A DNA stretch of 64,000 bases from NCBI GenBank assembly GCA_015178975.1, contig WHVD01000170.1, forward strand, positions 105,043 to 169,042. The letters are read 5' to 3'. The notes under the pieces are model-generated. The model worked only from the letters and a program-made list of their open reading frames with translations. It was not told the DNA's origin and searched no databases. This document shows, piece after piece, positions 6,408 to 61,433 of this stretch (positions are counted from its first letter, which is position 1; each line of letters opens with the position of its first letter). The stretch comes from Hysterangium stoloniferum. Taxonomy: Eukaryota; Basidiomycota; Agaricomycetes; Hysterangiales; Hysterangiaceae. Position numbers and translations under genes: made by a program.

Positions 6408-6614
6408 GTCTTGATGAAAGTATTGTCCCACGAGTCGTAGTCATAATTGATCTTTGCCGCCACTAAACCTGTGATTGGCTGCTTCGACTATGTTTGATGC
6501 GGGAGTGATTTTTGTGTCTTTACCAGTGTTTTCACATTCTTTTTTCTGAGCTTTAATTTTTTCTGTCCACTCGCGCCATCCTTCCAGTCGCCTGGCTCAG
6601 GAGGAATGGAATTG

Positions 6615-6982
6615 TGAAAGGCTGTTGTTATCAGCCTCACTCGGTCAACACGGACAGGACTAAGTTTTCTTTATTTTAATAGCAGTATGATACAAGATGA
6701 ATGTGAGGTTCCCTAGAGAAGACTGGGAAGGGATTTCATGGTCAAAAAGATTCCCCTCTTATCACTGTGGAGTGTATACTTATATATCTGCTTGGAACAA
6801 GAAGATTGTGGTAACAAAAGGTGCCTGAAGACAAGGAAGATGTGGCGGGAAAAGGAGAACAAAGGTTGATGGAAGAACAATGGTCAAGGGTGATTGAGTG
6901 GTGATGCAAGGAATGCTTGATTAGTCGAACAAAGGGAGTGGTTGCGAATGGTGGCATATGTGGTAAGGTGGCCAGGCTTACA
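6615..6982. mobile_element. Solo LTR (family F), copy 1
   Basis: A 368-bp TG...CA sequence starting TGAAAGGCTG and ending CCAGGCTTACA, flanked by a perfect 5-bp duplication AATTG at 610-614 (in the 6.6-kb region: 6610-6614) and 6983-6987. The ends match a second copy at 13138-13507 (shared ATCAGCCTCACTC near the start and GGCCAGG[C/A]TTACA at the end), while the middles have diverged. No internal retrotransposon sequence adjoins, so it is a solo LTR. Confidence 0.75.
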
Positions 6983-16580: not shown

Positions 16581-16720
16581 TCGATAAGTCCAATGAACAC
16601 TTGATAAGTCCAATGAACACTCGATAAGTCCAACGAACACTCGATAAGTCCAACGAACACTCGATAAGTCCAACGAACACTCGATAAGTCCAACAAACCC
16701 TCGATAAGTCCAACGAACAC
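16581..16720. repeat. 20-bp minisatellite, exactly 7 units
   Basis: Seven head-to-tail copies of TCGATAAGTCCAACGAACAC, with a few C/T and A/C changes, 210 bp downstream of the oxygenase stop codon. Confidence 0.95.
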
Positions 16721-16913
16721 TAGGGCCGGGTTTGAGAGGTCATTTGCCTCAGCTACTCTATAGGTATGACTACAGGAGCAATTAAATACACGGCTGCAAT
16801 GAAGCTATTGCACCTAATAAATAACACCGACACGGATAATTGTTGTCTACGAGCGACGCTTCATCATTATTTGTGTCGTCGGACTAGGTATATTGTTTAA
16901 CCCAATCCACACG

Positions 16914-28223: not shown

Positions 28224-28449
28224 TGTGAGGAGTATGCTTTTACCACAGTTTCATTGTGGTAAAACACTCCTTTTATTTTATTTATATTTTACACATTTCA
28301 TTCATATTTTTCTATCCTTTATATTCTTCGAATATTGCACCATTTCATTAGTTCGAAGCTTTGTGTATACTTGTGGGTGCACTTGGCACCAAATGAAACT
28401 CAGACACACTTTTTACCCAAGCACCACCACTCATAAGACATAAACTAGG

Positions 28450-29731
28450 TGTGAGAGGTATGGCAAAATATGCTCAGGAAATATAGTCTGGATGAGCTCA
28501 TACTATATTTCCTTTATTATTTCTACTCTCTCTATTTTATTATACACTTATAATTAGTTCGACGACCTATGTATGTGGTACATCGACTCTTGTGGGCGTA
28601 TACATGCCAGACTTATGTATTCTAGCACCTGTAGTTAAAACTCAGACACCTTTTTACCCCACAACCACAACTTACCCAGACACATAGTGTAAAGGGTATG
28701 CATATATGCATACCTGGACTAAGGAATAATAGCTGGATTATAGTACTTTATTATTTATCTTTTATTTTCTTTCTTTATATTCTTTCTATATTTTGAGCAC
28801 ACCTTGATTTTGTAGTTCGAAGCTTTGTGTATACGTATGGGCGCTCTCGGCGCCAAAAGAGACAGACAACTTTTACCCAGCAGACACCACCTCGTAAACG
28901 ACCCAGACGTCGAATAGTGAGAGGTGTCAAGGGTAACGTCTCAACTACCTTTAAAGGTAGTATTCTCTTGCATACTAACGTACTTTGGACTCGAACCGCG
29001 AAGGTCGAGTTCCAATCTAAGGTCTTTGCGCTAGTCGACATTATAGTCGACTCGCGCTATTATTTCTTTACTCTAGATATTCAGCTTCGCGTTGATTATC
29101 TATTTTACATCTAGCTACAAGTTGTACCGTGAAGGTCAACTCTTTCATTCTTTCATTCTAGCCATCAAGAGCAACTGTACAGTTGCTCTTGTGATGCATA
29201 GCGTGTCTTCTTACTAGTACAGCTTGTCTAGTAATCTACGGTATTGTACTGTACGGTCAATACCTGCTAATAGTAGTTGAATAGACACTATTCTTCGTAT
29301 ATTGAACGGTCAGAATCTATCGACTCTTCACACATAGTTAGTGTCCTGTAAGTCGTGATTGGGGTATCGTCTCGACCATCACAGATGGGCTTCAACTATC
29401 TACATGATCATAGTTTCGAACTGTGCCAGTCGAAACTCCACTTATATCTCCACCTGTGCGGACAACATCCGCACTACTCTATCATTCAACTCTCATTACT
29501 CTTTTCTACACTCAAGCAGTCATTTGGAATCGTACCTAACGGTCAATTCCCTTTATTCATTTTAGCTATCTACTCTACCTTAGATAGTTACTTCACTCAG
29601 ATGTATTGAACTAACAGTCAATACTTGTTCAGCATGTATTGGACTTAGACAGTCAATACAACTATGTGTTGTACCTAAACAGTCAATATTCTTCGTATAT
29701 AGAACAGTTAGAACTTCCACCACTCTTCAGA
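28450..29731 (+). mobile_element. Family A solo LTR inside family B, itself interrupted
   Basis: TGTGAGAGG...CTCTTCAGA flanked by CTAGG at 28445-28449 and 29732-29736. It is split at 28687 by a family C LTR. Confidence 0.85.
28688..29332 (+). mobile_element. Family C solo LTR inside family A
   Basis: 645 bp, TGTAAAGGGTATGCATATATG...CGACTCTTCACA, flanked by perfect CATAG duplications at 28683-28687 and 29333-29337. It contains TATGCATATATGCATA, a palindrome at the 5' end seen in all C copies. Confidence 0.9.
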
Positions 29732-38686: not shown

Positions 38687-38708
38687 TGTGAGGAGTATGC
38701 TTTTACCA

Positions 38709-41700
38709 CACTGGAGGCACCCCAAGATTTTTGGAGTTGCAAAACCTTCAAAAAATCTTGCTATTTGGCCAAATTTGCTAAGCATTCTTTGAACTGAAAA
38801 ACTGTTCGAAAATCTTGAGTTTTAGTAGGTTTTTCTGAGGACAAAAATTGTATCTGAAAACCCTAAAGATGTTGATCAGGAAATTCTAAGGAAACATTGT
38901 TGGAAATAGCCTATTTTCTGTGGATTTTCTAAATGGGGAAATTCTTAAAAAACCCTGGGTTTTGTTAGGTTTTTCCACCCAACAGATTTCTATAAAAACT
39001 GTAATAATTTGCCTAGAGAAATCAATTGAAAACAACATATTTCTGCTCAATTTTTCTGCTCAGGGAATTGGGTGAAAACTATAATTTTTTACCAGGAAAA
39101 TCTTGTGCCAAGACAATGTTTTGTTAATGTTTTGTCAAGGGGAACACCCATAATGAAATTGACAATTTAATTATATGGGAAATCATTGAATAATGATAGA
39201 TTTCAATAAAATTTTCCTTGGCCACAAACACTATGGAAATTCAAAAAATGTGTTGGTGAAATCTTGAAGAAATTAACAATTTCACATGAGTTTCTTAAAG
39301 GTTTTTCAAGATGAGAAACCTTGAACTGATTTTTCCTGATTGAGCATGATTCACAAATATTTAAGAGGATTGTTTTAGATTCAGGTAGATTCTTTTAGAT
39401 TCAGATAGATTCTTTTAGATTCTTTTAGATTCACATAGATTCACATAGATTCACATAGATTCACATAGATTCACATAGATTCAGAGAGATTCAGATAGAT
39501 TCTTTTGGATTCAGATAGATTCTTTTAGATTCACATAGATTCAGATAGATTATTTTAGATTCAGGTAGATTCTCTTAGATTCAGATAAATTCTTTGAGAT
39601 TCAGATAGATTCTTTTAGATTCAGGTAGATTCTTTTAGATTCACATAGATTCAGATAGATTGTTTGAGATTCAGATAGATTCTTTTAGATTCTTTTAGAT
39701 TCACCCTAAACCATAAAAGAATCTATGTGAATCTAAAAGAGTCTATGTGAATCTAAAAGAGTCTATGTGAATCTAAGAGAATCTATGTATCTGAATCTAT
39801 GTGAATCTATGTGAATCTATGTGAATCTATCTGAATCTATGTGAATCTAAAAGGATCTTTGTGAATCTATCTGAATCTATCTTAATCTAAAAGAATCTAT
39901 CTGAATCTAAAAGAATCTACCTGAATCTAAAAGAATCTATGTGAATCTAAAAGAATCTACCTGAATCTAAAAGAATCTATGTGAATCTAAAAGAATCTAT
40001 CTGAATCTATGTGAATCTAAAATAATCTATCTGAATGTAAAAGAATCTATCTGAATCTATGTGAATCTAAAATAATCTATCTGAATGTAAAAGAATCTAT
40101 CTGAATCTACAAGAATCTACCTGAATCTAAAATAATCTATCTGAATGTAAAAGAATCTAAAAGAATCTATGTGAATCTAAAAGAATCTATCTGAATCTAT
40201 GTGAATCTAAAAGAGTCTATCTGAATCTATCTGAATCTATCTGAATCTATCTGAATCTATCTGAATCTATCTGAATCTATCTGAATCTATCTGAATCTAT
40301 CTGAATTGATGTGAATCTAAAAGAACCTATCTGAATCTAAAAGAATCTATCTGAATCTATCTGAATCTAAAAGAATCTATGTGAATCTAAAAGAATCTAT
40401 CTGAATCTAAAAGAATCTATCTGAATCTAAAAGAATCTATCTGAATCTAAAAGAATCTCCCTGAATCTACAAGAATCTATGTGAATCTAAAAGAATCTAT
40501 CTGAATCTACAAGAATCTACCTGAATCTAAAATAATCTATCTGAATGTAAAAGAATCTAAAAGAATCTATCTGAATCTACAAGAATCTACCTGAATCTAA
40601 AATAATCTATCTGCATCTATGTCAATCTAACAGAATCTATCTGAATCTATGTGAATCGGAAAGAATCTATCTGAACCTAAAAGAATCTATCTGAATCTAA
40701 AAGAATCTATCTGAATCTAAAAGAATCTCCCTGAATCTACAAGAATCTATGTGAATCTAAAAGAATCTATCTGAATCTATCTGAATCTATCTGAATCTAA
40801 AAGAATCTATCTGAACCTAAAAGAATCTATCTGAACCTAAAAGAATCTATCTGAATCCCAAAGAATCTATCTGAATCTAAAAGAATCTACCTGAATCTAC
40901 AAGAATCTACCTGAATCTAAAATAATCTATCTGAATCTAAAAGAATCTCAAAGAATCTATCTGAATCTATGTGAATCTAAAAGGATCTACCTGAATCTAA
41001 AAGAATCTATCTGAATCTACAAGAATCTACCTGAATCTAAAATAATCTAAAATAATCTATCTGCATCTATGTCAATCTAACAGAATCTATCTGAATCTAT
41101 GTGAATCTGAAAGAATCTATCTGAATCTAAAAGAATCTATCTGAATCTAAGAGAATCTATCTAAATCTACAAGAATCTATCTGAATCTAAAAGAATCTCC
41201 CTGAATCTACAAGAATCTATGTGAATCTAAAAGAATCTATGTGAATCTAAAAGAATCTACCTGAATCTACAAGAATCTACCTGAATCTAAAATAATCTAT
41301 CTGAATCTAAAAGAATCTAAAAGAATCTATCTGAATCTATGTGAATCTAAAAGAATCTACCTGAATCTAAAAGAATCTATGTGAATCTAAAAGAATCTAT
41401 CTGAATCTACAAGAATCTACCTGAATCTAAAATAATCTATCTGCATCTATGTCAATCTAACTGAATCTATCTGAATCTATGTGAATCTGAAAGAATCTAA
41501 CCTAAAAGAAACTATCTGAATCTAAAAGAATCTATCTGAATCTAAAAGAATCTATCTGAATCTAAAAGAATCTCCCTGAATCTACAAGAATCTATGTGAA
41601 TCTAAAAGAACCTATCTGAATCTAAAAGAATCTATCTGAATCTATCTGAATCTAAAAGAATCTATCTGAATCTACAAGAATCTATCTGAATCTACAAGAA

Positions 41701-44341
41701 TCTATCTGAATCTAAAAGAATCTATCTGAAGCTAAAAGAATCTATCTGAATCTAAAAGAATCTCCCTGAATCTACAAGAATCTATGTGAATCTAAAAGAA
41801 TCTATCTGAATCTAAAATAATCTACCTGAATCTACAAGAATCTACCTGAATCTAAAATAATCTATCTGAATGTAAAAGAATCTAAAAGAATCTAAAAGAA
41901 TCTATCTGAATCTATGTGAATCTAAAAGAATCTACCTAAATCTATCTGAATCTATGTGAATCTAAAAGAATCTATCTGAATCTATGTGAATCTAAAAGAA
42001 TCTACCTGAATCTATCTGAATCTATGTGAATCTAAAAGAACCTATCTGAATCTATGTGAATCTGAAAGAATCTATCTGAACCTAAAAGAATCTATCTGAA
42101 TCTAAAAGAATCTATCTGAATCGATGTGAATCTAAAAGAACCTATCTGAATCTATCTGAATCTATCTGAATCTACAAGAATCTACCTGAATCTAAAATAA
42201 TCTATCTGCATCTATGTCAATCTAAAAGTATCTATCTGAATCTATGTCAATCTAAAAGAATCTATCTGAATCTACAAGAATCTATCTGAATCTAAAAGAA
42301 TCTATCTGAATCTAAAAGAATCTAAAAGAATCTATCTGAATCTATCTGAATCTATCTGAATCTAAAAGAATCTATCTGAATCTAAAAGAATCTATCTGAA
42401 TCTATGTGAATCTAAAAGAATCTACCTGAATCTAAAAGAATCTATGTGAATCTAAAAGAATCTATCTGAATCTACAAGGATCTACCTGAATCTAAAATAA
42501 TCTATCTGCATCTATGTCAATCTAAAAGAATCTATCTGAATCTATGTCAATCTAAAAGAATCTATCTGAATCTATCTGAATCTAAAAGAATCTATCTGAA
42601 TCTAAAAGAATCTCCCTGAATCTACAAGAATCTACCTGAATCTAAAATAATCTATCTGCATCTATGTCAATCTAAAAGTATCTATCTGAATCTATGTCAA
42701 TCTAAAAGAATCTATCTGAATCTACAAGAATCTATCTGAATCTAAAAGAATCTATCTGAATCTAAAAGAATCTAAAAGAATCTAAAAGAATCTATCTGAA
42801 TCTATCTGAATCTATCTGAATCTAAAAGAATCTATCTGAATCTAAAAGAATCTATCTGAATCTAAAAGAATCTATCTGAATCTAAAAGAATCTATCTGAA
42901 TTTAAAAGAATTTATCTGAATCTAAAAGAATCTATCTGAATCTAAAAGCATCTATCTGAATCTAAAAGCATCTATCTGAATCTAAAAGCATCTATCTGAA
43001 TCTAAAAGAATATATCTGAATCTAAAAGAATCTATGTGAATCTATGTGAAGCTAAAAGAATCTATCTGAACCTAAAAGAATCTATCTGAATCCAAAAGAA
43101 TCTATCTGAATCTAAAAGAATCTATGTGAATCTAAAAGAATCTATGTGAATCTAAAAGAATCTATGTGAATCTAAAAGAATCTACCTGAATCTACAAGAA
43201 TCTACCTGAATCTAAAATAATCTATCTGAATCTAAAAAAATCTCAAAGAATCTATCTGAATCTATGTGAATCTAAAAGAATCTACCTGAATCTAAAAGAA
43301 TCTATCTGAATCTACAAGAATCTACCTGAATCTAAAATAATCTATCTGCATCTAGTCAATCTAAAAGAATCTATGTGAATCTATGTGAATCTAAAAGAAT
43401 CTATCTGAATCTATGTGAATCTAAAAGAATCTATCTGAATCTATCTGAATCTATGTGAATCTAAAAGAATCTATCTGAATCTAAAAGAATCTATCTGAAT
43501 CTAAGAGCATCTATCTGAATCTAAAAGAATCTATCTGAATCTAAAAGCATCTATCTGAATCTAAAAGAATCTATCTGAATCTAAGAGAATCTATCTGAAT
43601 CTCAAAGAATCTATCTGAATCTAAAAGAATCTACCTGAATCTAAAACAATCCTCTTAAATATTTGTAAATCCCACTGTACCATTCCAAACAATTGTGAAT
43701 CATGCTCAATCAGGAAAAATCAGTTCAAGGTTTCTCATCTTGAAAAACCTTTAAGACACTCATGGGAAAATGTTAATTTCTTCAAGATTTCACCAACACA
43801 TTTTTTCAATTTCCATAATGTTTGTGGCCAAGGAAAATCTTATTAAAATCTATAATTATTCAATGATTTCCCATATAATTAAATTGTCAATCTCATTATG
43901 GGTTTTCCCCTTGACAAAACATTAACAAAACATTGTCTTGGCACAAGATTTTCCTGGTAAAAAATTATAGTTTTCACCCAATTCCCTGAGCAGAAAAATT
44001 GAGTAGAAATATGTGGTTTTCAATTGATTTCTCTAGGCAAATTATTACAGTTTTCATAGAATTCTGTTGGGTGGAAAAACCCTAACAAAACCCAGGGTTT
44101 TTTAAGAATTTTCCTATTTAGAAAATCCACAGAAAATAGGCTATTTCCAACAATGTTTCCTTAGAATTTCCTGATCAACATTTTTAGGGTTTTCAGATAC
44201 AATTTTTGTCCTCAGAAAAACCTACTAAAACTCAAGATTTTCGAACAGTTTTTCAGTTCAAAGAATGCTTAGCAAATTTGGCCAAATAGCAAGATTTTCT
44301 GAAGGTTTTGCAACTCCAAAAATCTTGGGGTGCCTCCAGTG
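38709..44341. mobile_element. CACTG-ended decamer-array transposon, copy 1 (CACTA/CMC-like, non-autonomous)
   Basis: 5,633 bp. Termini are CACTGGAGGCACCCC and its exact reverse complement, extended into terminal inverted repeats of about 0.66-0.69 kb (38709-39367 and 43651-44341). A 3-bp target duplication CCA lies at 38706-38708 and 44342-44344. The left repeat lacks about 30 bp present in the other arms, lost between two GATTCACA copies. Between the arms there is only decamer satellite and no ORF, so it depends on a transposase elsewhere. CACT(A/G) ends with 3-bp duplications indicate the CACTA/CMC superfamily; the superfamily call is inference. Confidence 0.85.
39368..43650. repeat. Decamer array with AATCTA core, about 420 units, orientation switch at about 39710
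   Basis: From 39719 to 43650 the plus strand is an almost unbroken run of 10-bp units AATCTA plus a variable four-base end: TCTG, AAAG, TGTG, CCTG, CAAG and rarer AAAT. From 39368 to 39704 the same units run on the other strand. The switch lies at ATTCACCCTAAACCATAAAAGAAT (written in two parts: ATTCACCCTAAACC, then ATAAAAGAAT). Confidence 0.95.
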
Positions 44342-44754
44342 CCACAGTTTCATTGTGGTAAAACACTCCTTTTATTTTATTTATATTTTACACATTCTAT
44401 TCATATTTATCTATCTTTTATATTCTTCGAATATTCCATCATTTCATTAGTTTGAAGCATTGTGTATACTTGTGGGTGCACTTGGCACCAATTAGAACTC
44501 AGACACACTTTTACCCAAGAACCACCACTCGTAAGACATAAACTAGGTCTACTACGAGTGGTGATCAGGGTAACGTGTCAGCTACTACATAGGTAGCAAT
44601 ATCTGAACTATCTAACACTTCTGGCCTCGAACTATAACAGTCAAGGCCTCCACTCGAATCATCCTTCCCGAATCATCCTTCTCGAATCATCCTTCCTCCC
44701 ATTCTACTCATTTCTTCGTATATAGAATGGTCAGAACTTATACCACTCTTCACA

Positions 44755-46140
44755 GTGGTGATCCGGGCCAGACCGTACTTTCCCTACGAAGAAAATCTCT
44801 TTTTATTCAACTATCAAATTCTAAATACAAAAGGCTGTCTAGAACTCCTCACACGCTGAGCGTCACGAATCTGGTAAAATGGAAGGTAACTCGAACTTTG
44901 AGCAGTCGAGTCCCTTGGAAAGGCAAAATGCTCGCATCTTCATGAAGGATACCCTGGTCTTCCCGCCGAGACAAGTTATGCTCAAGCACCATGGCCAACT
45001 ACTTTATTCGGAGCCTGTCAATGTGAAGTGGGGCTCCTACTACACTTCTCGAGTTTCGAGGGATAAGGTTGTCACTGCCACAAAGGATTACAAAACAAAG
45101 TACCCATCCATGCCTACGAGAATAGCCATCTGGCTGGGAAGGTACCATGGCATCATATCAGCACATGACTTATTCACTTGGCCTGGAACTCTCGACGAGG
45201 TAACAAAGTTGATCCCAAGGTGGTCAAATGAAGTGATGCTTTTCTGAGAAAAGGGAATAGTGGGTATCAAGATGGAATTGTTCATTCTGCTCTCCAATTT
45301 ACTTTGTGTGCATGATGATTTGCTACAGATTATGCATGTATTGCTTGGAGGGGACCATATCATGCCAAGGGTTGATACAGATTTCATATACATTCAAACA
45401 TTGAAGGAATCTATATACAGTAAACCCTCAAATGTGTGCTTCGCCTACTTTACTCTCAGGTCGAGATTGATGCATAACCTGGAGAGATGTAACAAGATGA
45501 TGGCAGAATTGCTTAGTGGGTTTGACAAGCCAGCACAAACACCCTCATCCTCCAGCTCTGGTCCCTTTCACGAAGAATGTCCTGGAATCTATGCCAGATC
45601 AACTGCCAAAAACGGACAGTCATCTTTCTCGAATGTGTCTGCAGAAAATATCACAGTCAAAGTCATCTCCAGTTCCCCATTATCCTCAGGTCGAGATTCA
45701 CAGTGTCCTGACAAATCTTGCCATCCATCACCTATCCATCCTATCCCATTTACTCTGCCAAGTGGACCCTTCAACAAGTTGTCCAATAGATCGAACGATT
45801 GGGACTGCGATAGAGGCCTGGAAACTGGGGAGCAGAAATCAGATGACGGTTTTAATGATATAAAAGGCATGGGACAGGACTCACCAACAGTAAAGGCATC
45901 CCATCTTGCAGGACTCGACAAAAGCTTTCCCATGGAGATACCACTGGGAATTCGTCGACACAAGCCCCTAATTCCAGAATGGGGGGCGCTGATGAAGTTT
46001 CTGCAAATGGAAGATGACCATGGATGCACTGCACTGGATACCCCTCAACAGACCAAGCCAAGGACAGATACTTTCCCATTTGACCCAGGACGCTCCCTTA
46101 AAATTTATGTTGTATGGGGGACAATTGTGATATTGTGGGA
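44755..46140 (+). pseudogene. Gypsy Gag N-terminal extension, plus-strand non-autonomous copy
   Basis: Reads FPPRQVMLKHHGQLLYSEPV, YPSMPTRIAIWLGRYHGIIS, AHDLFTWPGTLDEVTKLIP, then TGA at 45245, then KMELFILLSNLLCVHDDLLQ, IMHVLLGGDHIMPRVDTDF and FAYFTLRSRLMHNLERCNK. It is collinear with the element at 58.5 kb. The TGA is at a plausible CGA. After about 45520 a serine/proline-rich part follows, ending in a G-rich tract near 46160. Confidence 0.75.
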
Positions 46141-46900
46141 TTGTTCTGGAATAACAATGTCGCAACAGGGGGGCAGTATAGGGGGTATAGGAGAGGGCAC
46201 ATACAGTCTCGCCAATGGAACAGTCGAGAGTGGGGTGCAGTGCGTGAGCACATAGGCGCGAGTGTGCAGGAGTATGGGTGCAGCATATGGATATGGGTGT
46301 GGCAGTGTGCAAATGACTATGGCACCAGTCTCTCCGATGAAACAGTTGAGAGCTGGGTGCAGTGCATGAGCATGTAGCTGCACAGGTGCACAAGCATGCT
46401 GTGTGGGTGCACGAACACGTCAGACAGTGCACAAGCATGCTGTGCAGACGTGCAAACACGTCACATGGGTGCGCGAGCGCATCAACACATCGCACAGATA
46501 TGCAAGTATACTGCACGAGCACACCAACACATCATGTGGGGGCATGCGTGTGCACGGCGCATGGATGTGGTGTGTGCGCACGTGGTGTGGATGTGGTGCA
46601 TGCGTGCGGGGCGTGGAGGTAGTGCGTGTGCATGCCGCGTGGATGTGGTGCATGTGCGTGGCGCATGGATGTTGGTGTGCCACACGGGTACGCAAGTGCA
46701 CTGCGTAGGTACGGGTGTAGGGGTATGGGCATATGGGTACAGCGTATGGATGCAACTTGTAGGTGCACTGCGCAGGTGCAAGTGTATGGATGTGGCACAC
46801 GAACATGGGCACGTGCATGCAGTACATGGATGGGGGCGCACTGCGTAAGTGAAGACGTATAAAAATAAGGAGTGGGAGGCAGAGCTGGAGAGACAGGACG
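46141..46900. repeat. GT-rich low-complexity region
   Basis: Dense GTGCA/GCATG/TGTGGATG motifs on the plus strand, read as His/Thr/Pro-rich on the minus strand. ORFs of 60-246 codons here come from lack of stops in this composition, not from genes. Confidence 0.7.
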
Positions 46901-47085
46901 TGGAGAAGATCAATTTGTCGACTATCCCGCCCCCTCCACCCACTGAGCCACAGCTGTCCTCGTCCTCCTTTTCGGCCACTGCGCCACCCTTCTCGAAACG
47001 GCACCTTTTGTTACTCTCAAGTCTGACAACTTCAAAGGTGTGCAGCGCGAATGTGCAAGTACGGGTGCGTAAGTGCAGTCCATTG

Positions 47086-47225
47086 GCGCGGTTTGAGGGT
47101 GCACTGTGTGGGTTTGAGGGTGCACTGTGTGGGTTTGAGGGTGCGCTATGTGGGTTTGAGGGTGCACTGTGTGGGTTTGAGGGTGCGCTGTGTGGGTTCA
47201 AGGGTGCACTGTGCGGGTGCATAGT
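47086..47225. repeat. 21-bp minisatellite, about 6 units
   Basis: Units of GGGTTTGAGGGTGCACTGTGT with few changes. In one frame it encodes GALCGFE repeats and on the other strand NPHSAPS repeats. Confidence 0.9.
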
Positions 47226-48188
47226 GCATGCTAGGGTTCAAAGGGCAACTGGGCCAACGGAAACAGAGGGTGCTGCAGAGCAAGGCAATGTAAGGGCGCA
47301 GATTTGGGCCACTGGGGAGATACCCTCCAAGTGACGAGCAATTGGGGCCAGAGAAGTGGGCCTACTTTCAAAGAACCATCCCATGGCACTGTGTAGAGAT
47401 GGGTGACCACTCCATGTCAATGCTAGGACAACCTTACCCAATCCTTCCAAACAATGAGGATATGAGGTCGACAGTCAAACACGAAACAGACTAAGGGACT
47501 GACTTCCAAAACTTGTGGACACAGGGCCGTGTTACCTCATAACGAAGCCTTCACACCGTCTCAACCTTCAACGTCATCTACTCTTAGCCTTTCCCTCTGC
47601 TAAAGCTTTGTACTGAAATAGTCGAAGCTCTGTTCTTCTAAGATTTTCAACTTACAGGTTCAGCACTCACTGTTCAACAAGGTCTTTCCTCATGGTTAAA
47701 GCCTCGCACTGAAATAGTCAGAGCTTTGCCTTTCTTGACCTTCGTGACTTGCAGGCTCGGCATGCAACACTTTCTGATCAGGTATTCGCAGATTCGGGTT
47801 TGGTGTGTGACACCTTGCAATACTGCCCTGACAACTTCTCGCCAACACACATGGACCCTTTTCCCCTCTGCCCCTCCACTTTACCTTTGTCGGTGGTCAA
47901 CTAGCTGCAAAAGGTTCAATAACTCATGGGCAACACCTAGATCAGATACATCTGGACAGAACTATGTGACCCAACCTCAGTGCCGTATTTGGATCCATCA
48001 TCACAATTGTACTGAATTCAGTCAATTTCGTGATTTTTTCTTTTTCCTCTGGACCCACCCACCTACTCGAAGCATTACTGGACACTTTCTAGACCTGCCA
48101 TGGGCTAGACCTTTTGGGAACACAGACTGCAACCTAACTATACACAACAATGGTTAATTTGTGAGATTGCCATGGAACAACAATATTG
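47226..48188. other. LTR-like debris
   Basis: Two copies of a block with GTACTGAAATAGTCGAAGCTC (47610, 47710) resemble the CGCACTGAAACAGTCGAAGTC segment of the gypsy LTR at 58110. Otherwise no gene or clear ends. Confidence 0.4.
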
Positions 48189-48545
48189 CAATACACTCAG
48201 GAAATATAGTCGGATGTGCTCTTACTATATTTCCTTTATTATTTCTATTTTCTCTCTTTCATTATATCTATAATTAGTTCGACAACCTATGTATGTGGTA
48301 CATCGACTCTTGTGGGCGCACACACGCCAGACTTATGTATTCTAGCGCCCGTAGTTTAGAACTCAGACACTTTTTACACCGCAACCACGACTTACCCAGA
48401 CACCCATTAGTGTCCTGTAAGTTGTGATTGGTGTATTGTCTCGACCATCACAGACAGGCTTTAGCTACTCATTCAAACTGAGTTTCGAACTGTATCAGTT
48501 GAAACTCAATCCCTATCTCAACTCGCGTGGAGTACATCCACGCTA
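48189..48545 (+). mobile_element. Family A-like LTR fragment
   Basis: CAATACACTCAGGAAATATAGTCGG... matches the divergent A-like LTR at 34344, starting inside it and ending near GTACATCCACGCTAC. No terminal TG or CA and no target duplication, so it is truncated at both ends. Confidence 0.7.
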
Positions 48546-48959
48546 CCAAACATGTGGATGCATCTGTGCATGCGGGTACGCCATCATAAACCCCTCATCC
48601 CATGACTCACCGCTGCTTTTTTGGGAGAGTGAGGCGTCATCAGTGTTGGCGGTGGGGTGGTGCTGCATGTCACCAAGACCCACAATGGTACACAACCTGT
48701 AGCTTAACATTGATAGGGTGGAAAGGCTGAGAAAATAGTGTGATAAATTAATATACGTGATATGTTAAGGATTAACATGTAGCATGAGGCATAGCATCAT
48801 ATAATATATTCAAATATTCACTCATCAACAAAAATGACTATTGCTATAGTGACCCATTGACCAAAATAGATGCCAGCATGATTCTCGCAAACCTAACTTT
48901 GTAATTCCAGGCAAGAAAGGCCCTGCAGGAAAAATATATATACTGCCTAATAACCCAGT
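48546..48959. other. Unassigned sequence between the LTR fragment and a minisatellite
   Basis: No gene recognised. AT-rich around 48720-48830. Confidence 0.4.
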
Positions 48960-49556
48960 GATTCTGAAAAATAGGAATGATGGACCTTGAAGTTTTGAAA
49001 TGGTGATCAAGTTTTTGATGGAGAGGTTTTTGAATAGCAACACAGGTTTTTGAATTGCGAAGACATTTTCTAACGACGATGAAGAGGTTTTTGAACAGCA
49101 ATGAGACACTCTCGAACGGTGACAAAGATGTTTTCAAACAGCAATGACGTTTATGAATGGCAACGAAGACGTTTTGGAATGGTGAAGATGTTTTTGAACA
49201 GTGATGAGATATTTTCGAATGGTGACAAAGACATTTTCAAACAGCAGATGACATTTGCGAATGGTGAAGAAGAGGTTTTGGAATGGTGAAGAAGTTTTTG
49301 AACAGCAATGAGACATATTTGAATGGTGACAAAGACATTTTCAAACAGTGATGATGTTTATGAACAGCGACGAAGACGTTTTGGAATGGCAAAGATGTTT
49401 TTGAACAGCGATGAGACATTTTTGAATGGTGACAAAGACATTTTCAAACAGCGATGATGTTTATGAATGGCAACGAAGACATTTTGGAATGGCGATCACC
49501 ACCGGGGATGCCCACTTTGAAGACTGGGACCGGTGAAGACATTTTCGAATGGCAAT
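48960..49556. repeat. Degenerate minisatellite, period about 103-106 bp
   Basis: The block GGTGACAAAGACATTTTC recurs at about 49114, 49220, 49325 and 49428, with shorter internal repeats of TTTTTGAACAGCGATGA and GAATGG. The array ends at the family C LTR boundary (49557). Confidence 0.85.
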
Positions 49557-50198
49557 TGTGAAGAGTCGATAGATTCTGACCGTTCAATATACGAAGTATA
49601 GCGTTTATTCAACTACTATTGGCAGGTATTGACCATTCAGTACAATACCGTAGATTACTAGACTGGCAGTACTAGCAAGGAGACACGCAATGCGTCACAA
49701 GAGCAACTGTACAGTTGCTCTTGATGGCTAGAATGAAAAGATGAAAGAGTTGACCTTCACGGTACAACTCGTAGCTAGAAGTAAGATAGATAATCAACGA
49801 GAAGCTGAGTATCTAAAGTAAAGAGATAGTAGTGCGAGTCGACTATAATGTCGACGAGCACAAGGACCTTAGAGTGGAACTCGACCTTCGTGGTTTGAGT
49901 CCAAAGTCTGTGAGTATGCGAGAGAACACTACCTTTATAGGTAGTTGAGACGTTACCCTTGACACCTCTCGCTATTCGACGTCTGGGTCGTTTACGAGGT
50001 GGTGTCTGCGGGGTAAAAAGTGTCTGTCGTTTGGCACCGAGAGCGCCCATAGGTATACACAAGACTTCGAACTAAGAAATACGGGTATGCTCGAAGGATA
50101 TAGGGAATTAAAGAAAAGAAATAGAAACTAGATAATATAGTACTATAATGTGCATAATAATCCACTGTCCAATTATGCATATATGCATACCCTTCACA
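49557..50198 (-). mobile_element. Family C LTR, 3' LTR of the minus-strand proline-rich element
   Basis: 642 bp, same ends and length as 36348-36989. On the minus strand it is preceded by a polypurine tract AACTGGGGGGCAC. Confidence 0.85.
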
Positions 50199-51563
50199 GT
50201 GCCCCCCAGTTCGAAGGGATGTGCTATACAAGGTGTCGAAGAGCATTTGGGATGCCGCCCCAAGCCTCCTGTGAGGATCCCCCAAGGTCCAAAATGATGT
50301 TTCCCCATCGTTCCCTTTTTACTCTGAAGGATTCGGCTATTCTCGCCTGAGCCAAATCACTAGAATTCCTGTACAAGGAGTCGGCCCATCGTCTGTAGGC
50401 TTTCTGTGAGGAGTATGCTTTTACCACAGTTTCATTGTGGTAAAACACCCCTTTTATTTTATTTATATTTTACATATTCTATTCATATTTTTCTATCTTT
50501 CATATTCTTCGAATATTGCATATTTCATTAGTTCGAAGCATTGTGTATACTTGTGGGTGCACTCAGCACCAATTAGAACTCAGACACACTTTAACCCAAG
50601 AACCACCACTCATAAGACACAAACTAGGTCTACTACGAGCGGTGATCAGGGTAACGTGTCAGCTACCACATAGGTAGCATTATCTGAACTACTGAATACT
50701 TCTAGCCTCGAACTGTAACAGTCGAGGCCTCCACTCGAACCATTGCACTCGTTGACTCCTTCGTCATCTCGTGCTCCTTCTCTCACTTTCTCTTATATTG
50801 CACCGAGTAGGTCAATATCCTTCCTTTCTACTCATATCTTCGTATATAGAACAGTCAGAACTTCCGCCACTCTTCACACTGGAGGCACCCCAAGATTTTT
50901 GGAGTTGCAAAACCTTCAGAAAATCTTGCTATTTGGCCAAATTTGCTAAGCATTCTTTGAACTGGAAAAACTGTTCAAAAATCTTGGGTTTTAGTAGGTT
51001 TTTCTGAGGACAAAAATTGTATCTGAAAACCCTAAAAATGTTGATCAGGACATTCTAAGGAAACATTGTTGGAAATAGCCTATTTTCTGTGGATTTTCTA
51101 AATAGGAAAATTCTTAAAAAACCCTGGGTTTTGTTAGGGTTTTTCCACCCAACAGAATTCTATCAAAACTGTAATAATTTGCCTAGAGAAATCAATTGAA
51201 AACCACATATTTCTACTCAATTTTTCTGCTCAGGGAATTGGGTGAAAACTGTAGTTTTTTGCGAGGAAAATCTTGTGCCAAGACAAAGTTTTGTTAATGT
51301 TTTGTCAAGGGGAAAACCATAATGAAATTGACAATTTAATTATATGGGAAATCATTGAATAATAATAGATTTCAATAAGATTGTCCTTGGCCATAAACAC
51401 TATGGAAATTCAAAAAATGTGTTGGTGAAATCTTGAAGAAATTAACAATTTCACATGAGTTTCTTAAAGGTTTTTCAAGATGAGAAACCTTGAACTGATT
51501 TTTCCTGATTGAGCATGATTCACAATTGGTTGGAATGGTACAGTGGGATTCACAAATATTTAA

Positions 51564-53879
51564 GAGGATTGTTTTAGATTCAGGTAGATTCTTTTAGAGT
51601 CAGATAGATTCTTTTAGATTCAGAGAGATTCTTTTAGATTCAGATAGATTCTTTTAGATTCAGATAGATTCAGATAGATTCAGATAGATTCAGATAGATT
51701 CTTTTAGATTCAGGTAGATTCTTTAAGATTCAGATAGATTCAGTGAGATTCACATAGATTCAGATAGATTATTTTAGATTCAGGTAGATTCTTGTAGATT
51801 CAGATAGATTCTTTTAGATTCACATAGATTCAGATAGATTCTTTTAGATTCACATAGATTCTTTTAGATTCAGATAGATTCAGATAGATTCTTTTAGATT
51901 CAGATAGATTCTTTTAGATTCAGATAGATTCTTTTAGATTCAGATAGATTCTTTTAGATTCAGATAGATTCTTTTAGATTCAGATAGATTCTTTTAGATT
52001 CAGATAGATTCTTTTAGATTCTTTTAGATTCACATAGATTCAGATAGATTCATTTAGATGCAGATAGATTCATTTAGATTCAGATAGATTCTTTTGGATT
52101 CTTTTAGATTCAGATAGATTCAAATAGATTCAAATAGATTCAGATAGATTCTCTTAGATTCACATAGACTCTTTAGATTCACATAGATTCTTTTGGGTTT
52201 AGGGTTTAGGGTTCACATAGATTCTTTTAGATTCATAAAGATTCTTTTAGATTCATAAAGATTCTTTTAGATTCATAAAGATTCTTTTAGATTCACATAG
52301 ATTCAGATTGATTCTTTTAGATTCACATAGATTCAGATAGATTCAGATAGATTCAGATAGATTCTCTTAGATTGACATAGACTCTTTTAGATTCACATAG
52401 ATTCTTTTAGATTCAGATAGATTCTTTTAGATTCAGATAGATCCAGATAGATCCAGATAGATTCAGATAGATTCAGATAGATTCTTTTAGATTCAGGTAG
52501 ATTCTTTAAGATTCAGATAGATTCAGTGAGATTCACATAGATTCAGATAGATTATTTTAGATTCAGGTAGATTCTTGTAGATTCAGATAGATTCTTTTAG
52601 ATTCACATAGATTCAGATAGATTCTTTTAAATTCACATAGATTCAGATAGATTCTTTTAGATTCAGATAGATTCTTTTAGATTTTTTTAGATTCACATAG
52701 ATTGTTTTAGATAGATTCAGATAGATTCAGATAGATTCAGATTGATTCTTTTAGATTCTTTTAGATTCACATAGATTCAGATAGATTCTTTTAGATTCTT
52801 TTAGATTCAGATAGATTCAAATAGATTCAAATAGATTCAGATAGATTCTCTTAGATTCACATAGACTCTTTTAGATTCACATAGATTCTTTTGGATTTAG
52901 GGTTTAGGGTTCACATAGATTCTTTTAGATTCTTTTAGATTCTTTTAGATTCAAATAGATTCACATAGATTCAGATTGATTCTTTTAGATTCACATAGAT
53001 TCACATAGACTCTTTTAGATTCACATAGATTCTTTTAGATTCATAAAGATTCTTTTAGATTCTTTTAGATTCTTTTAGATTCACATAGATTCAGATAGAT
53101 TCATTTAGATTCAGATAGATTCTTTTAGATTCTTTTAGATTCAGATAGATTCTTTTAGATTCTTTTAGATTCAGATAGATTCAGATAGATTCTTTTAGAT
53201 TCACATAGATTCAGATTGATTCATTTAGATTCATTTAGATTCAGATAGATTCAAATAGATTCAAATAGATTCAGATAGATTCAAATCTATTTGAATCTAT
53301 CTGAATCTATCTGAATCTATCTGAATCTATCTGAATCTAAATGAATCTATGTGAATCTATGTGAATCTAAAAGAATCTAAAAGAATCTATCTGAATCTAT
53401 GTGAATCGAAAAGAATCTAAAACAATCTATCTGAATCTATCTGAATCTATCTGAATCTATGTGAATCTATCTGAACCTATCTGAATCTATCTGAATCTAA
53501 AAGAATCTATCTGAATCTCAAAGAATCTATCTGAATCTAAAAGAATCTATCTGAATCTAAAAGAATCTATCTGAATCTAAAAGAATCTATCTGAATCTAA
53601 AAGAATCTATCTGAATCTAAAAGAATCTATCTGAATCTAAAAGAATCTATCTGAATCTATGTGAATCTAAAAGAATCTAAAAGAATCTATCTGAATCTAT
53701 GTAAATCTAAAAGAATCAATCTGAATCTATGTGAATCCAAAAGAATCTAAAAGAATCTAAAAGAATCTAAAAGAATCTATCTGAATCTAAAAGAATCTAT
53801 CTGAATCTAAAAGAATCTATCAGAATCTATGTGAATCTAAAAGAGTCTATCTGAATCTATGTGAATCTATCTGAATCTA
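51564..53879. repeat. Decamer array, copy 2, with strand switch at 53285 and telomere-like inserts
   Basis: The same AATCTA-core decamers as copy 1. Orientation flips at AGATTCAAATCTATTTGAAT (about 53277-53297), a perfect palindromic junction. GGGTTTAGGGTTTAGGG-type sequence occurs at about 52196-52211 and again at 52895-52908. The array continues at 55120-55862. Confidence 0.95.
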
Positions 53880-55119
53880 TGTTAAGTGCCATGTCGGGAA
53901 CTTATTCCAGAACTATCGGGAAGTCACCGGGAAGTCGGAAACTCGTGGATAGGGTCAGGACGTCGGCTTCAGCTTATGTGCTGCGCCTCTACGCAAACAC
54001 TCAATGTCCTTAATTTCGGAAGTGAACTAACGACGGAAGATATGGATATTCAGAGTTCCGAAGAGTTCCAAATATCGAGCGTACAGAAAGACGGGAGGAG
54101 GAATAAGAAACTAAGTCGATATCAGATCTAAAGCAAAGTACAAATTCGCGGAAACTAATATAGTCTACTCGTTATTGGAGGGTGTTTATAATTACTATAA
54201 TCTCAAATATTTACTAATAAAAGTCTTATTTTTACAAAACTCCATCTTTAAATAGTGATATCTATTCTGAAACAATTATATCATCAAAAAACAACCATCA
54301 GAAATAGTTCTCCATATTACATCTTATACAACCCATAGTTATTTAACAAATTCCATTGTATATAATTTCCTTCCTTTTACAGATGCCTACTAATACTTTT
54401 ATTAGTACTTTGTTTTTTAAAAGTTGTAATGAAGTTATTTCCATGTAAAATATGTAAAATATTATTGGAAAATTTTCATACCACAGCTGTCTTTATTAAG
54501 TAAAACCCCCTATATATTCTGGGTATGTTGAATCAAGTAGAAATCTGTTCAGATTGACAGATCTATTCCGAAGTAATACATATGTATTTAGAGGTGCCAA
54601 TGATATACATATGCATGGAATGGACTATCTAAAGGTATCTACTTTTTAAAAGTATTAGTGTTTCAAACTACTAATTTTTTTTATTGTCTACTCGTGTCCA
54701 GAAAGATTCTTTAGTTTGTAATGTATGAGAGAGTTTAAAACTTTTTGAAAGTTTTAAAAACCAAATTATGTTTGAATCACATCCCAGATGTTTAAATGAC
54801 CTTTAGAGTATATTAGAATTTGGTATACTTAATAGTTTTCAGATATCCTCCATTGTACTACAAACTGAGACCATAATAAGACGGAAACGGAAGTATTCTT
54901 AAAACGGAAATACAATAAGACATATTAGGAAGACAATATTCCGAGACGGGAATACAACAACAAACGAATGAATACTTGTCAACGGACAAATTACCAAATG
55001 CGGAACAAACGAAGAACGTGGATGATACGGTAACTATGATGTTCCGTAGTCGGATATCGGATATCGAAAGTGGGAGATCGGAAGTCGGATATTGAAACAT
55101 CCGGGAACGGGTCGTAACA
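53880..55119 (+). mobile_element. Family D solo LTR inside the decamer array
   Basis: TGTTAAGTGCC...GGGTCGTAACA, 565 bp once the nested element is removed, with perfect 5-bp duplications ATCTA at 53875-53879 and 55120-55124. Homologous to the LTR remnant inside copia (25729-26514). Confidence 0.9.
54177..54851. mobile_element. 675-bp GGAGG-ended element, copy 2
   Basis: Reverse complement of 37635-38309 with very few changes and the same length. Flanked by ATT at 54174-54176 and 54852-54854, inside the solo LTR. Confidence 0.92.
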
Positions 55120-57761
55120 ATCTAACAGAATCTATGTGAATCTAAAAGAATCTATCTGAATCTATGTGAATCTATGTGAATCTAAATGAATCTATGTGAA
55201 TCTAAAAGAATCTAAAAGAATCTATCTGAATCTATGTGAATCTAAAAGAATCAATCTGAATCTAAAAGAATCAATCTGAATCTAAAAGAATCAATCTGAA
55301 TCTAAAAGAATCAATCTGAATCTAAAAGAATCAATCTGAATCTAAAAGAATCAATCTGAATCTAAAAGAATCTATCTGAATCTATGTGAATCTAAAAGAA
55401 TCTAAAAGAATCTAAAAGAATCTAAAAGAATCTATCTGAATCTATGTGAATCTAAAAGAATCTAAAAGAATCTAAAAGAATCTATCTGAATCTATGTGAA
55501 TCTAAAAGAGTCTATCTGAATCTATCTGAATCTAACAGAATCTATCTGAATCTAAAAGAATCTATCTGAATCTATGTGAATCTAAAAGAATCTATCTGAA
55601 TCTATCTGAATCTAAATGAATCTATGTGAATCTATGTGAATCTAAAAGAATCTAAAAGAATCTATCTGAATCTATGTGAATCGAAAAGAATCTAAAACAA
55701 TCTATCTGAATCTATCTGAATCTATCTGAATCTATGTGAATCTATCTGAACCTATCTGAATCTATCTGAATCTAAAAGAATCTATCTGAATCTCAAAGAA
55801 TCTATCTGAATCTAAAAGAATCTATTTGAATCTAAAAGAATCTACCTGAATCTAAAACAATCCTCTTAAATATTTGCGAATCCCACTGTACCATTCCAAA
55901 CAATTGTGAATCATGCTCAATCAGGAAAAATCAGTTCAAGGTTTCTCATCTTGAAAAACCTTTAAGAAACTCATGTGAAATTGTTCATTTCTTCAAGATT
56001 TCACCAACACATTTTTTGAATTTCCATAGTGTTTGTGGTCAAGGAAAATCTTATTGAAATCTATAATTATTCAATGATTTCCCATATAATTAAATTGTCA
56101 ATTTTATTATGGTTTTCCCCTTGACAAAACATTAACAAAACTTTGTCTTGGCACAAGATTTTCCTCGCAAAAAAGTACAATTTTCACCCAATTCCCTGAG
56201 CAGAAAAATTGAGTAGAAATATGTGGTTTTCAATTGATTTCTCTAGGCAAATTATTACATTTTTCATAGAATTCTGTTGGGTGGAAAAACCCTAACAAAA
56301 CCCAGGGTCTTTTAAGAATTTTCCTATTTAGAAAATCCACAGAAAATAGGCTATTTCCAACAATGTTTCCTTAGAATTTCCTGATCACCATTTTTAGGGT
56401 TTTCAGATACAATTTTTCTCCTCAGAAAAACCTACTAAAACCCAAGATTTTCAAACAGTTTTTCCAGTTCAAAGAATGCTTAGCAAATTTGGCCAAATAG
56501 CAAGATTTTCTGAAGGTTTTGCAAATCCAAAAATCTTGGGGTGCCTCCAGTGTCACACTTTCTCTCTGCAACGAATGACTGCGTGGACACTAACCGGCGG
56601 AGTGGAAATCCGCACGAGAAGAGGAGCATTGGGGAGGGGAAACGAAGACGCGGGTAGCGGTGCAGGAATGTGTGGCTGCATAGTGGTCTCTGTGGGAGGC
56701 GTCAGGACGATGGCCTCGAGTAAATCTACTAAGCCAGCAATAGAGAGGACACTCGCTGAGTCTGGGGGCAGACGGTGAAGCTCCACTATGATGTGCTGGA
56801 ACATAGAGAGTTTAATCTCCTGTGCTGCTCGCGCAAAGTTCTTCCCCGCTGCGAGATCCTCGAAGGAGAGATAGTAATCCTCCATTATCTCCGACAACGG
56901 AGCCAGACCGCGACAACCCTTAAGGCTCCCATGAAGGACCGGTTGCTGAAGTACTGGCACTAGCTGTGATAGCACCCTTCTGACAGGAAACTGTTCGGAA
57001 GGGTAGTTGACCGCTACTCACATCCAGAAAGTTGTGGATACGGGCTCAGTGGGTGGAAGCGGGCTGTCGAGGACGGGAATAGGGGATCGCTCTCGGAGAG
57101 GAGTGGTGGCTTTCTGCATCTCCTTCACCTTTCTGCTTGCAATGGGAATGATGATGTCCAGTGTAAGAGGGTCCAAATCGACATCCATTCACTCTTGTGG
57201 AAGGTCCTGGATAGGGCTACCTAAGGACATGCAATATGAATACGGAGAGTCGGGAGGGATACCCAGTGACAGTGGAAGTGGGGTCGGGACCGGTATAGCT
57301 TTCGGGGAGGGAGAGAGACGAGGCGCAAGAATCAGGGCTGAGGGAGTGTGTGCCGGAAGGAGGATGGGAAGGGGCCTTGACGTTGGTGAAAGGCGTGGGA
57401 CTGGAATCGGGGAAGGTTCGCGTTGGGCTGAGGGAGTGTGTGCCAGGTGAAGGATGGGAGGGGGCCTCGACATCCTAAGTGAGGTTGGGACTGGTACAGC
57501 TTTTGTGGAGGGAGGTAGATGAGGCGTTAGAATCGGGGCTGAGGGAGTGTGTGCTGGGTGAATGATGGGAAGGGGCCTCGACATTGGCGAAAGACGTGGG
57601 ACCGGAATCGTGGAAGGTTCGCATTCCAGTGACTGTTGACTAGGGCGGTGACCCCTCCATACTCTGGATGACAGTCTCCGTGTTTGTCTTTGGTTGGGGT
57701 CGCTGGTTATGAAGCAAACTTTCGATGGGAGGAGGAACCCTTCATGGCAATCCTCTCCCAG

Positions 57762-59831: not shown

Positions 59832-61433
59832 TTGCCAATTTCACGGGCCCCCTTCTTTCCCCCAGGAGGGCTGCCTGGGGATTCTTCTGATGGATCCAGC
59901 GATTCAGATTACAGAAGGGATTGGGACGAGAGAAGGCGAAACCCGAAAAATCCAGGAGGCCCAGCAAGCACTAATAAGAACACTAAGAGTGCCGCTCCCG
60001 ACACCGAAATTGGGAAGTTGACCTTGAACACCAATGATCTCAAAATCAAATGGTCAGATCTCCCTGAATATGACGGCTCACAATCTAAGGCACTGGACTA
60101 CATAATGGATGTTATGAGCTTGTCGGAAATCTCAGAATCCATGACGACAATTCTAGGCATCGCTCTTCCCAGACGACTTAAAGGGAACGTGAAAATCTGG
60201 TGGACTACTTTGGATCATGAGCATAGCACTGAATTCAGTCGATTGCACAGGTCTTTCCTTTGGAGTATAGTCAAAGGGTTGTTGGGTACACGATGGCATG
60301 AATCCCTGTCCCTAGAATGGGAAGAAATGAGGTTTTGTCAGCCCCATCACGACCGCGAAACCCCTGTGCAGTATATTCAAAGAAGAGTTAAACTCTACAG
60401 ATTTCTATACGGATTCTACCAAGAAAAGGAAGAGGAGACCCACCGGTTAATACTTACCCTACCCACGGAATGGTTATACTTAATACAAGGGCAAGCCATT
60501 GATGACGTCATGAGCCTCCAAGCACACGCCAATAACCTACAGGAAGCTCTAATTAATGCCTGGAATCAAACACATAGAGATAGATTTCGCCCCATTAGAC
60601 CTCGAGTTATGGTCGCGGAAAAAAACGAATTAGAAGTGGAAGCCCTGGAGCATACTCCAACTTCTCCCGATTCCATCCACCCCCATCAGGTCCTTTCCAG
60701 CGAAATAGATGACAAGGGCATGACGAGGACTCCCAGAGCAGGAAGGACTGATCCGACGCGAGGGAAACGACACGGGAAACTCTTCTTCGAGAGGAGCGAC
60801 AAACGGAGTAGCACTAGACCCCCCAAAGAGTGCTGGATTTGTGGGAGCACAGAACATTTCAAAATTGACTGTCCTCACTCAGGTAAAATGGCTCATTACG
60901 TCTCATTGAATCTATGCTCCGGGCAGAATCCTTCGGAGGAGGCGGAGGAGCAAAGGCTATATGAGGCAGTTTACAGACTAAGTACAGGCACGCGAGTATA
61001 TAATGTCGAAAGCGAATCAATTTTCATTCCAGCTTATACTGTTACCCCTGAAGATCACGAAATAATTGAGAGGTCACCCGGAGACGAAGAACCCCAACGT
61101 GGGGAAGTATACATTTCTATATCTCACGAGGATTTCGTTGAAAGAGGAGATTGTTTGGAAGTGCACTGTCAGCACCACGAAGGTCTGTCAGGGTTTAAGA
61201 GTTCCTCAAACAATATACCGCCATCGATTGAAGAAATCGCGGACGAGGAAATGTCTATCGACCGGGTTGCCTGCCTTAACAAGCAACATCTCATAGAAGA
61301 CATCAGGAACGATATGGAGGAGGAAACCTTTCCTTTCGACCCTGGACTTCCTCCTGACCTCTTGATCAGTGACGAATCGGACTCGGAGGGGGAAACAGAT
61401 GTGACCGCCTCGATGACCGCCTCGAACAGATGA
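59832..61433 (+). pseudogene. Ty3/gypsy Gag capsid and nucleocapsid
   Basis: In frame with the upstream part: PISRAPFFPPGGLPGDSSDG linker, IKWSDLPEYDGSQSKALDYI, RRLKGNVKIWWTTLDHE, TPVQYIQRRVKLYRFLYGF (retrotrans_gag capsid), then the CX2CX4HX4C zinc knuckle CWICGSTEHFKIDC at 60831-60872 and an acidic tail. No ATG occurs before IMDVM, which supports synthesis as part of a longer Gag. It ends at TGA 61431-61433, followed in frame by pol. Confidence 0.8.

Follow-up and report, generated by a model that had tools for sequence, protein, structure and literature searches.

The Foldback (FB) elements of Drosophila carry inverted terminal repeats composed of short tandem repeats, including a 10-bp class, and differ in superfamily and in target site duplication (TSD) length from the elements reported here. 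The latter are two transposons with CACTG termini and interiors of 10-bp units (decamers), located in a 64-kb window of Hysterangium stoloniferum DNA (contig WHVD01000170.1, positions 105,043–169,042; "window" denotes this whole analysed stretch), together with their relatives across the genome, which comprises 111 Mb in 554 contigs. With a probability of roughly 0.7, we read them as non-autonomous CMC (CACTA/EnSpm-like) foldback transposons whose inner-arm repeat grew through slippage or unequal exchange and is mostly passive.

Several described systems share part of this architecture. Tetris/DAIBAM of Drosophila virilis has terminal inverted repeats (TIRs) with tandem repeats in variable number, a miniature inverted-repeat transposable element (MITE) with the same termini, repeat expansion and, as far as the excerpted text goes, likewise no autonomous element; it differs in its unit of ~220 bp, a TSD of 8–10 bp (suggested to be Mutator) and the additional presence of free satellite-like arrays, whereas here the units are of 10 bp, the TSD is of 3 bp and no free array was seen (PMC4079207, excerpts). 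Galileo, a Drosophila element of the P superfamily, is similar in its long, internally repetitive, foldback-like TIRs, but its transposase is known and its tandem repeats hold extra THAP-domain binding sites (PMC3688188, excerpts). Fungal EnSpm elements of the CMCT clade share CAC..GTG termini and 3-bp TSDs, although the described fungal EnSpm/Plavaka elements encode a transposase, unlike the elements read here, and PlavakaA (TGT..ACA) and PlavakaB (CATCA..TGATG) differ from them in their ends (PMC12730594, excerpts). En/Spm and the soybean Tgmt* elements have CACT ends, a 3-bp TSD and repeated subterminal motifs (sub-motif AATCTTACAG in Tgmt*), with 4 and 24 subterminal repeats and 13-bp TIRs in Tgmt*, as opposed to the 0.7-kb arms of the present elements and their decamers, which number in the dozens to hundreds on each side (PMC2613891, excerpts). 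Finally, a CACTA-like element of Chenopodium quinoa also carries a tandem array, which lies near the 3' end and is described as a captured satellite, and is not a short-unit palindrome, the similar monomer of C. sosnowskyi measuring 171 bp (PMC8978399, excerpts). No such fungal element was found among the listed titles and abstract openings of open-licence literature on fungal foldback, tandem-repeat EnSpm and basidiomycete minisatellite transposons.

Element 1 spans 38709–44341 (5633 bp, TSD CCA) and element 2 spans 50877–56552 (5676 bp, TSD TCA). The terminal 26 bp, CACTGGAGGCACCCCAAGATTTTTGG, are identical across all four ends, and the left arm matches the right at 97% identity across approximately the first 600 bp. 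A reading made earlier from the letters of the window, hereafter the sequence-only reading, had described two CACTG-ended elements with such arms (663–694 bp), these TSDs and decamer interiors, which the end, arm and array analysis corroborated. Its statement that the interior is almost only decamers has to be corrected, as strict decamer chains make up 75% of element 1 and 53% of element 2, the latter with a 1240-bp insertion and telomere-type runs. Nor are the decamers of an element a single array: from each end they run towards the middle, and the two sets meet at the centre. The parts of both elements are as follows, with the supporting analysis in brackets where recorded:

38706..38708, no strand: left TSD of element 1, CCA (end comparison and paralogous empty sites)
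38709..39371, plus strand: left arm of element 1, 663 bp, starting with CACTGGAGGCACCCCAAGATTTTTGG (end and arm comparison)
39372..39701, minus strand: inward decamer array of element 1 in TAGATT sense, 33 units (decamer chaining)
39702..39719, no strand: centre of element 1, CACCCTAAACCATAAAAG, 18 bp, where array polarity switches (chaining and printed sequence)
39720..43647, plus strand: opposite array of element 1 in AATCTA sense, 389 chained units (Tandem Repeats Finder and chaining)
43648..44341, minus strand: right arm of element 1, 694 bp (end and arm comparison)
44342..44344, no strand: right TSD of element 1, CCA (end comparison)
50874..50876, no strand: left TSD of element 2, TCA (end comparison)
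50877..51570, plus strand: left arm of element 2, 694 bp (end and arm comparison)
51571..53281, minus strand: inward decamer array of element 2, containing telomere-type runs at 52195–52213 (19 bp) and 52896–52911 (16 bp)
53284..53879, plus strand: opposite array of element 2, first part (decamer chaining)
53880..55119, no strand: nested insertion resembling a solo long terminal repeat (LTR) in the element 2 array, TGTTA...TAACA, 1240 bp, with a 5-bp TSD ATCTA
55120..55858, plus strand: opposite array of element 2, second part, 74 units (decamer chaining)
55859..56552, minus strand: right arm of element 2, 694 bp (end and arm comparison)
56553..56555, no strand: right TSD of element 2, TCA (end comparison)

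The element 1 array was detected by Tandem Repeats Finder with a score of 4512, a period of 20 and 200 copies. At lags 10 and 20, array self-match reached 0.70 and 0.83, respectively, compared with 0.15–0.27 at lags 7–9 and 11–13, which rules out chance periodicity. Three paralogues within the window (28224–28450, 35211–34931 and 50404–50723) cover the junction of element 1 but lack the element; 21–23 bp were matched to the left of the junction, and these empty sites are compatible with a 3-bp duplication. Elements 1 and 2 are genuine, recently mobile DNA transposons consisting mostly of mirror-image decamer arrays, and no gene could be recognised in them. The nested TG..CA insertion splits the array of element 2 and is not part of the transposon. 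Elsewhere in the genome, at locus L046, an LTR-like start cuts the element after ~118 bp, and the interrupting sequence there has a start similar to the 53880–55119 insertion (84% over 304 bp).

A search for the ends returned 500 genome matches with at most three mismatches, and the 100 exact ends listed form 30 facing pairs, of which 21 were read: 18 fetched copies with AATCTA decamers (A-type), chosen for exact 25-bp ends, one fetched copy of a sister class (B-type) and the two window elements. The 20 A-type elements measure 3.0–7.5 kb. CACTG...CAGTG termini are present in all 20 and in the two complete B-type elements, and an exact 3-bp TSD flanks 20 of 20 A-type elements, both complete B-type elements and one of two MITEs. 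All 20 A-type elements have a common layout, in which an arm is followed by an inward array in TAGATT sense, a single switch point, an array of opposite sense and the second arm, with the left arm at ~650–700 bp (usually 663 or 694) and the array–arm junction word found in every one. The centre measures 18 bp in ten elements, 72 bp in seven and 0–4 bp in three; where printed, it is CACCCTAAACCATAAAAG, a longer form containing part of CACCCTAAACCATAAAAG, or a direct palindrome. Given this arm–array–centre–array–arm layout, an A-type element amounts to a single long inverted repeat closed by a very small loop, i.e. a foldback element. The left and right array of one element may differ greatly in length (33 versus 389 chained units in element 1) or be nearly balanced (306 versus 302 in L009). 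The commonest units join AATCTA to TCTG, AAAG, TGTG, CCTG or CAAG, and the unit total depends on the method, with 6810 obtained by walking inward from the ends and 7304 from chained GAATCTA words.

Beyond the elements read, A-type arrays occur at at least 44 places, with an arm seen at 37; this count includes two elements that were read and lack the rarer of two array words used as probes (L021 and L024; the word is present in 18 of 20). The commoner word has 924 exact matches in the genome, of which 389 fall in the 20 elements, and by this proportion the genome would hold ~175 kb of A-type array in total. B-type decamers flank one A-type element, L015, on either side.

The arrays change mostly in whole decamers and far faster than the arms mutate. 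This is seen in L009 (TSD AAA) and L019 (TSD CTT), which are independent insertions with zero arm differences over ~600 bp per arm, and yet have 608 and 394 chained units, respectively, and arrays that are ~2.1 kb apart in length. Alignment of their interiors gave 27 gaps, 26 of which are multiples of 10, and 66 mismatches, some of which may be alignment artefacts; it is the combination of identical arms with whole-decamer gaps that places array turnover ahead of arm mutation. The alignments of seven element pairs contain 212 gaps, and 168 of these have a length divisible by ten. A long, near-uniform run of a 20-bp dimer in L063 suggests a very recent expansion.

B-type copies have the same ends and arms that are ~85% identical to those of the A-type over ~655 bp. 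Their decamers have a GTC[GA]C core with AAAGT, ACAAA or AAAAA tails, and one 12-kb copy has TIRs of 3.1 kb that are 99.5% identical. The array of L040 is intermediate between the classes (AGTCTAAAAG, AGTCTA-type). Steps between GTC words were counted in 14 arrays of B-type or intermediate kind: of 469 steps, 386 are multiples of ten and 40 are of 8 bp, so that the B-type phase is not strict. A GC-rich interior of ~2 kb, inverted in some copies and open in several frames, is common to B-type copies (seen in L012/L013, L043, L044, L045, L055, L057–L059 and L062); its scanned open reading frames (ORFs) gave no Pfam match, and it is possibly captured host DNA.

The third class comprises MITEs of 200–375 bp without a decamer array, two of which were read. 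L042 (375 bp) has a TAT TSD, and L039 (201 bp) has a mutated left end and a 4-bp repeat, TGCT, in place of a 3-bp TSD. They are 78–89% identical to A-type arms over 74–189 bp, and the ends of all three classes can be aligned across the terminal 100–190 bp. Among the ends listed, at least ten further facing pairs span 364–377 bp and two more span 277 and 141 bp, which suggests additional MITEs in the genome, known from these spans alone. As L042 is free of decamers and has moved, decamers are not essential, and they would not be required for mobility if, as is assumed, one transposase serves the A-type, B-type and MITE copies. Likewise, the B-type core differs under nearly identical ends, and the decamers are therefore not one fixed binding word. 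Both results weaken the proposal of the sequence-only reading that the decamers are a hugely expanded set of binding sites.

The CACTG...CAGTG termini agree with the CACT(A/G)...(T/C)AGTG form of CMC elements, and the TSD has the 3-bp length of the CMC (EnSpm/CACTA) group; the CACTA/CMC-like structure named by the sequence-only reading is upheld by these two features. Long inverted repeats with internal tandem repeats, which define foldback elements structurally, are found in 20 of 20 A-type elements, and L042 and L039 provide the short, non-coding relatives with the same termini that characterise MITE/TIR families. The 3-bp TSD sets the elements apart from the foldback elements of the Mutator superfamily (8–10 bp), as the CACTG..CAGTG ends do from Plavaka (TGT..ACA or CATCA..TGATG). 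If the elements are non-autonomous CMC foldback transposons, a transposase encoded elsewhere would cut the CACTG ends, acting in trans as a CMC enzyme that recognises the common terminal 120–190 bp. The decamers would originate from a short GATTC/GAATC-type word at the inner edge of the arm, and a GATTC-type motif is visible at the arm–array boundary. Growth would proceed inward from both ends through whole-unit replication slippage or unequal exchange, with the palindromic layout assisting expansion, and the arrays would be passive passengers or, at most, dispensable auxiliary sites for binding that compensate for the burden of greater length, an effect suggested for Galileo. Such an accessory binding role of the decamers is possible by analogy.

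A source of transposase was sought across the genome, where profile searches gave 68 matches to PF18759 (Plavaka) and 12 to PF02992 (Transposase_21). None of these 80 matches lies inside the 50 end pairs drawn from the ends listed, and the ends are absent from 18 loci around 16 Plavaka/Transposase_21 genes, 14 of these loci reaching ~1.5 kb beyond the match and four ~5 kb; the flanks of four Transposase_21/Plavaka-like loci contained no such ends. The genome search that the sequence-only reading had proposed thus returned CACTG...CAGTG pairs with the expected arms and, among the ends listed and the loci read, no transposase gene with these ends. The source may lie among ends beyond those listed, may be missing from the assembly or may have died out.

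Three long candidates for an autonomous partner were rejected. The 12-kb copy on contig C442 is B-type and contains a nested coding piece, and the 14.7-kb candidate on C9, of which 10 kb were read, proved to be B-type sequence in which a retroelement is nested (RVT_1, E 4.7e-25). Two 1.2-kb samples of the 16-kb candidate on C46 match window positions 60748–60971 and 57457–57760, near retroelement-like ORFs, and have no decamers. In the C442 nested piece (L012 ~4521–6732 into L013), ORFs resemble by eye a reverse transcriptase and a tyrosine recombinase (DIRS-like); the recombinase ORF had no Pfam match, and the other matched RVT_3 in part with E 0.0088, below the cut-off. At eight further loci, the second exact end lies outside the ends listed: L039 and L042 are the MITEs, L040, L043, L044 and L045 are B-type or intermediate, L046 is the interrupted copy, and L041 (C1:1089850–1094650) has the same end and a 719-bp arm, followed by 4 kb without a decamer array. 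The fetched piece of L041 contained no second end, and its sole ORF of more than 140 codons had no Pfam match; it may be an autonomous relative or one filled with other sequence. None of seven ORFs taken from L012, L040, L044 and L045 had a Pfam match at 0.1.

Several points weigh against the assignment and against passivity of the arrays. None of the elements read contains a recognisable transposase, and for that reason the CMC assignment is drawn from the ends and the TSD only; that a single transposase serves the A-type, B-type and MITE copies is an assumption. Phase-breaking indels are about four times rarer in the arrays than in the arms, with 34.5 versus 8.6 substitutions per indel (arrays: 53 shifts and 1279 substitutions, the latter counted at seven positions and scaled to ten; arms: 403 substitutions and 47 indels). 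This scarcity could reflect selection on phase; we do not take it as such, because homogenisation by unequal exchange also purges units of odd length. The A-type decamers further resemble the soybean CACTA sub-motif of 10 bp, AATCTTACAG, near-matches of which in two A-type arrays exceed those in column-permuted arrays (3/500 and 21/500 permutations reach the observed value), and the AGTCTA-type array of L040 gives a 10/12 match to the En motif (1/500 permutations). These three results come from 15 tests with motifs chosen post hoc, of which the other 12 were unremarkable, and the resemblance to plant CACTA motifs is weak. Lastly, the core word AATCT/AGATT is modestly enriched over base shuffles in four of six terminal 188-bp stretches (P 0.006, 0.033, 0.040 and 0.046; 0.18 and 0.56 in the other two), the six being homologous and not independent.

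Motif resemblance and terminal enrichment are what would be expected if the decamers were expanded binding sites of a TNPA-like protein, making the element a super-substrate or titrating the protein away from other copies. There is precedent in CACTA elements, whose subterminal repeats are bound by TNPA (PMC2613891, excerpts), and in Galileo, whose TIR repeats hold extra transposase-binding sites as shown by electrophoretic mobility shift assay (PMC3688188, excerpts). The scarcity of phase-breaking indels and the constant polarity of the decamers relative to the nearest end, found in 20 of 20 elements, point the same way. Nevertheless, a decamer-free MITE with similar ends has moved, B-type elements carry a different core under closely similar ends, and no candidate binding protein was found, so that we consider this explanation rather unlikely. 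An extended form of it would accommodate the different cores, in that each subfamily (AATCTA, AGTCTA and GTC[GA]C) would have expanded its decamers and changed them together with a TNPA-like DNA-binding protein, array length and core setting the preferred substrates and the hundreds of sites per element biasing transposase supply against relatives; this we regard as less likely again.

Two other explanations concern the arrays as such. The period itself might be functional, through phased DNA bending or nucleosome positioning, which would suit both the 10-bp period of the two array families and the relative rarity of phase-breaking indels in A-type arrays. The helical repeat of DNA is 10.5 bp per turn, however, and a 10.0-bp unit drifts by ~17 degrees per copy, so the alignment of all AATCTA cores on one DNA face, as pictured in the sequence-only reading, fails beyond about five units. 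The looser B-type phase and the predicted curvature also speak against a phased structure: in a wedge model, with 20 column permutations of the same period as controls, the A-type arrays ranked 13 and 12 and the B-type array 21 (1 = most curved of 21). Curvature was accordingly dismissed as something peculiar to the arrays, for which the predicted values are ordinary; an arm of element 2 ranked most curved of 21, but the permutation control breaks the A-tracts of the arm. A functional period is thus very improbable. So, and slightly more so, is ordinary satellite DNA that captured transposon arms once or several times, which the unit length and turnover of the arrays would recall. All 100 listed matches of the commoner array word (contigs C1 to C68) lie in or beside elements, 87 of them with a seen end on either side and the other 13, on C46, next to a single arm. 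The rarer word has 85 matches at 42 places, 59 of them between two ends or arms and 13 beside one (72 of 85); the remaining 13, which fall outside the examined set and would leave room for free arrays, are at seven places on contigs beyond the end listing, and none was shown to be free. A free satellite was found among none of the arrays examined. Together with the junction word and the tie between array polarity and the ends, each seen in 20 of 20 elements, this argues against capture, and the view of the sequence-only reading that the decamers belong to the transposon stands on the word matches, the TSDs and the empty sites.

Telomere-type sequence was a further feature of the arrays. In addition to the 19-bp and 16-bp runs of element 2, runs of 19 bp are present in L016 and L024 (three of 20 elements), and CCCTAAA or its complement occurs at the centre of 17 of 20. 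The telomere-like centre was set aside as a notable feature, since a match of 9–10 bp is unremarkable (a 9-bp run occurs elsewhere in the window), whereas the 19-bp runs are remarkable; the runs are possibly the product of telomerase-type repair of breaks in the palindrome. The telomere repeat of this genome is apparently TTTAGGG, with 149 exact overlapping matches of a 28-bp four-unit word versus three for TTAGGG (30-bp five-unit word). The matches are on C65, C97, C125, C186, C196, C209 and other contigs, and those listed are apparently at contig ends, to judge by how long the neighbouring contigs are. TTTAGGG is an unusual telomere repeat in fungi.

Elsewhere in the window, positions 49080–49495, between both elements, form a tandem array with units of ~103/207 bp made of sub-repeats of ~20–22 bp. 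Two of the 18 hydrophobin matches in the genome are in the window, at 18483–18623 (minus strand) and 21778–21918 (plus strand), in mirrored orientation and with one internal TAA each. Taken with the 68 Plavaka matches, the hydrophobins indicate a filamentous fungus and probably a basidiomycete. A 382-codon ORF at 15223–16371 (plus strand) has a domain of the mpaB/Lcp rubber-oxygenase type (PF09995) and is followed by a 20-bp tandem repeat at 16581–16721.

One genome contains dozens of related mobile copies with differing array lengths, a sister decamer family and repeat-free MITEs, all with similar ends, which makes these elements a natural experiment on why transposons fill with short repeats. 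They allow a direct test of whether long repetitive TIRs promote transposition, an idea put forward for Galileo and Tetris, or accumulate passively when palindromes undergo slippage, and they extend the foldback architecture to CACTG-ended elements of a fungus.

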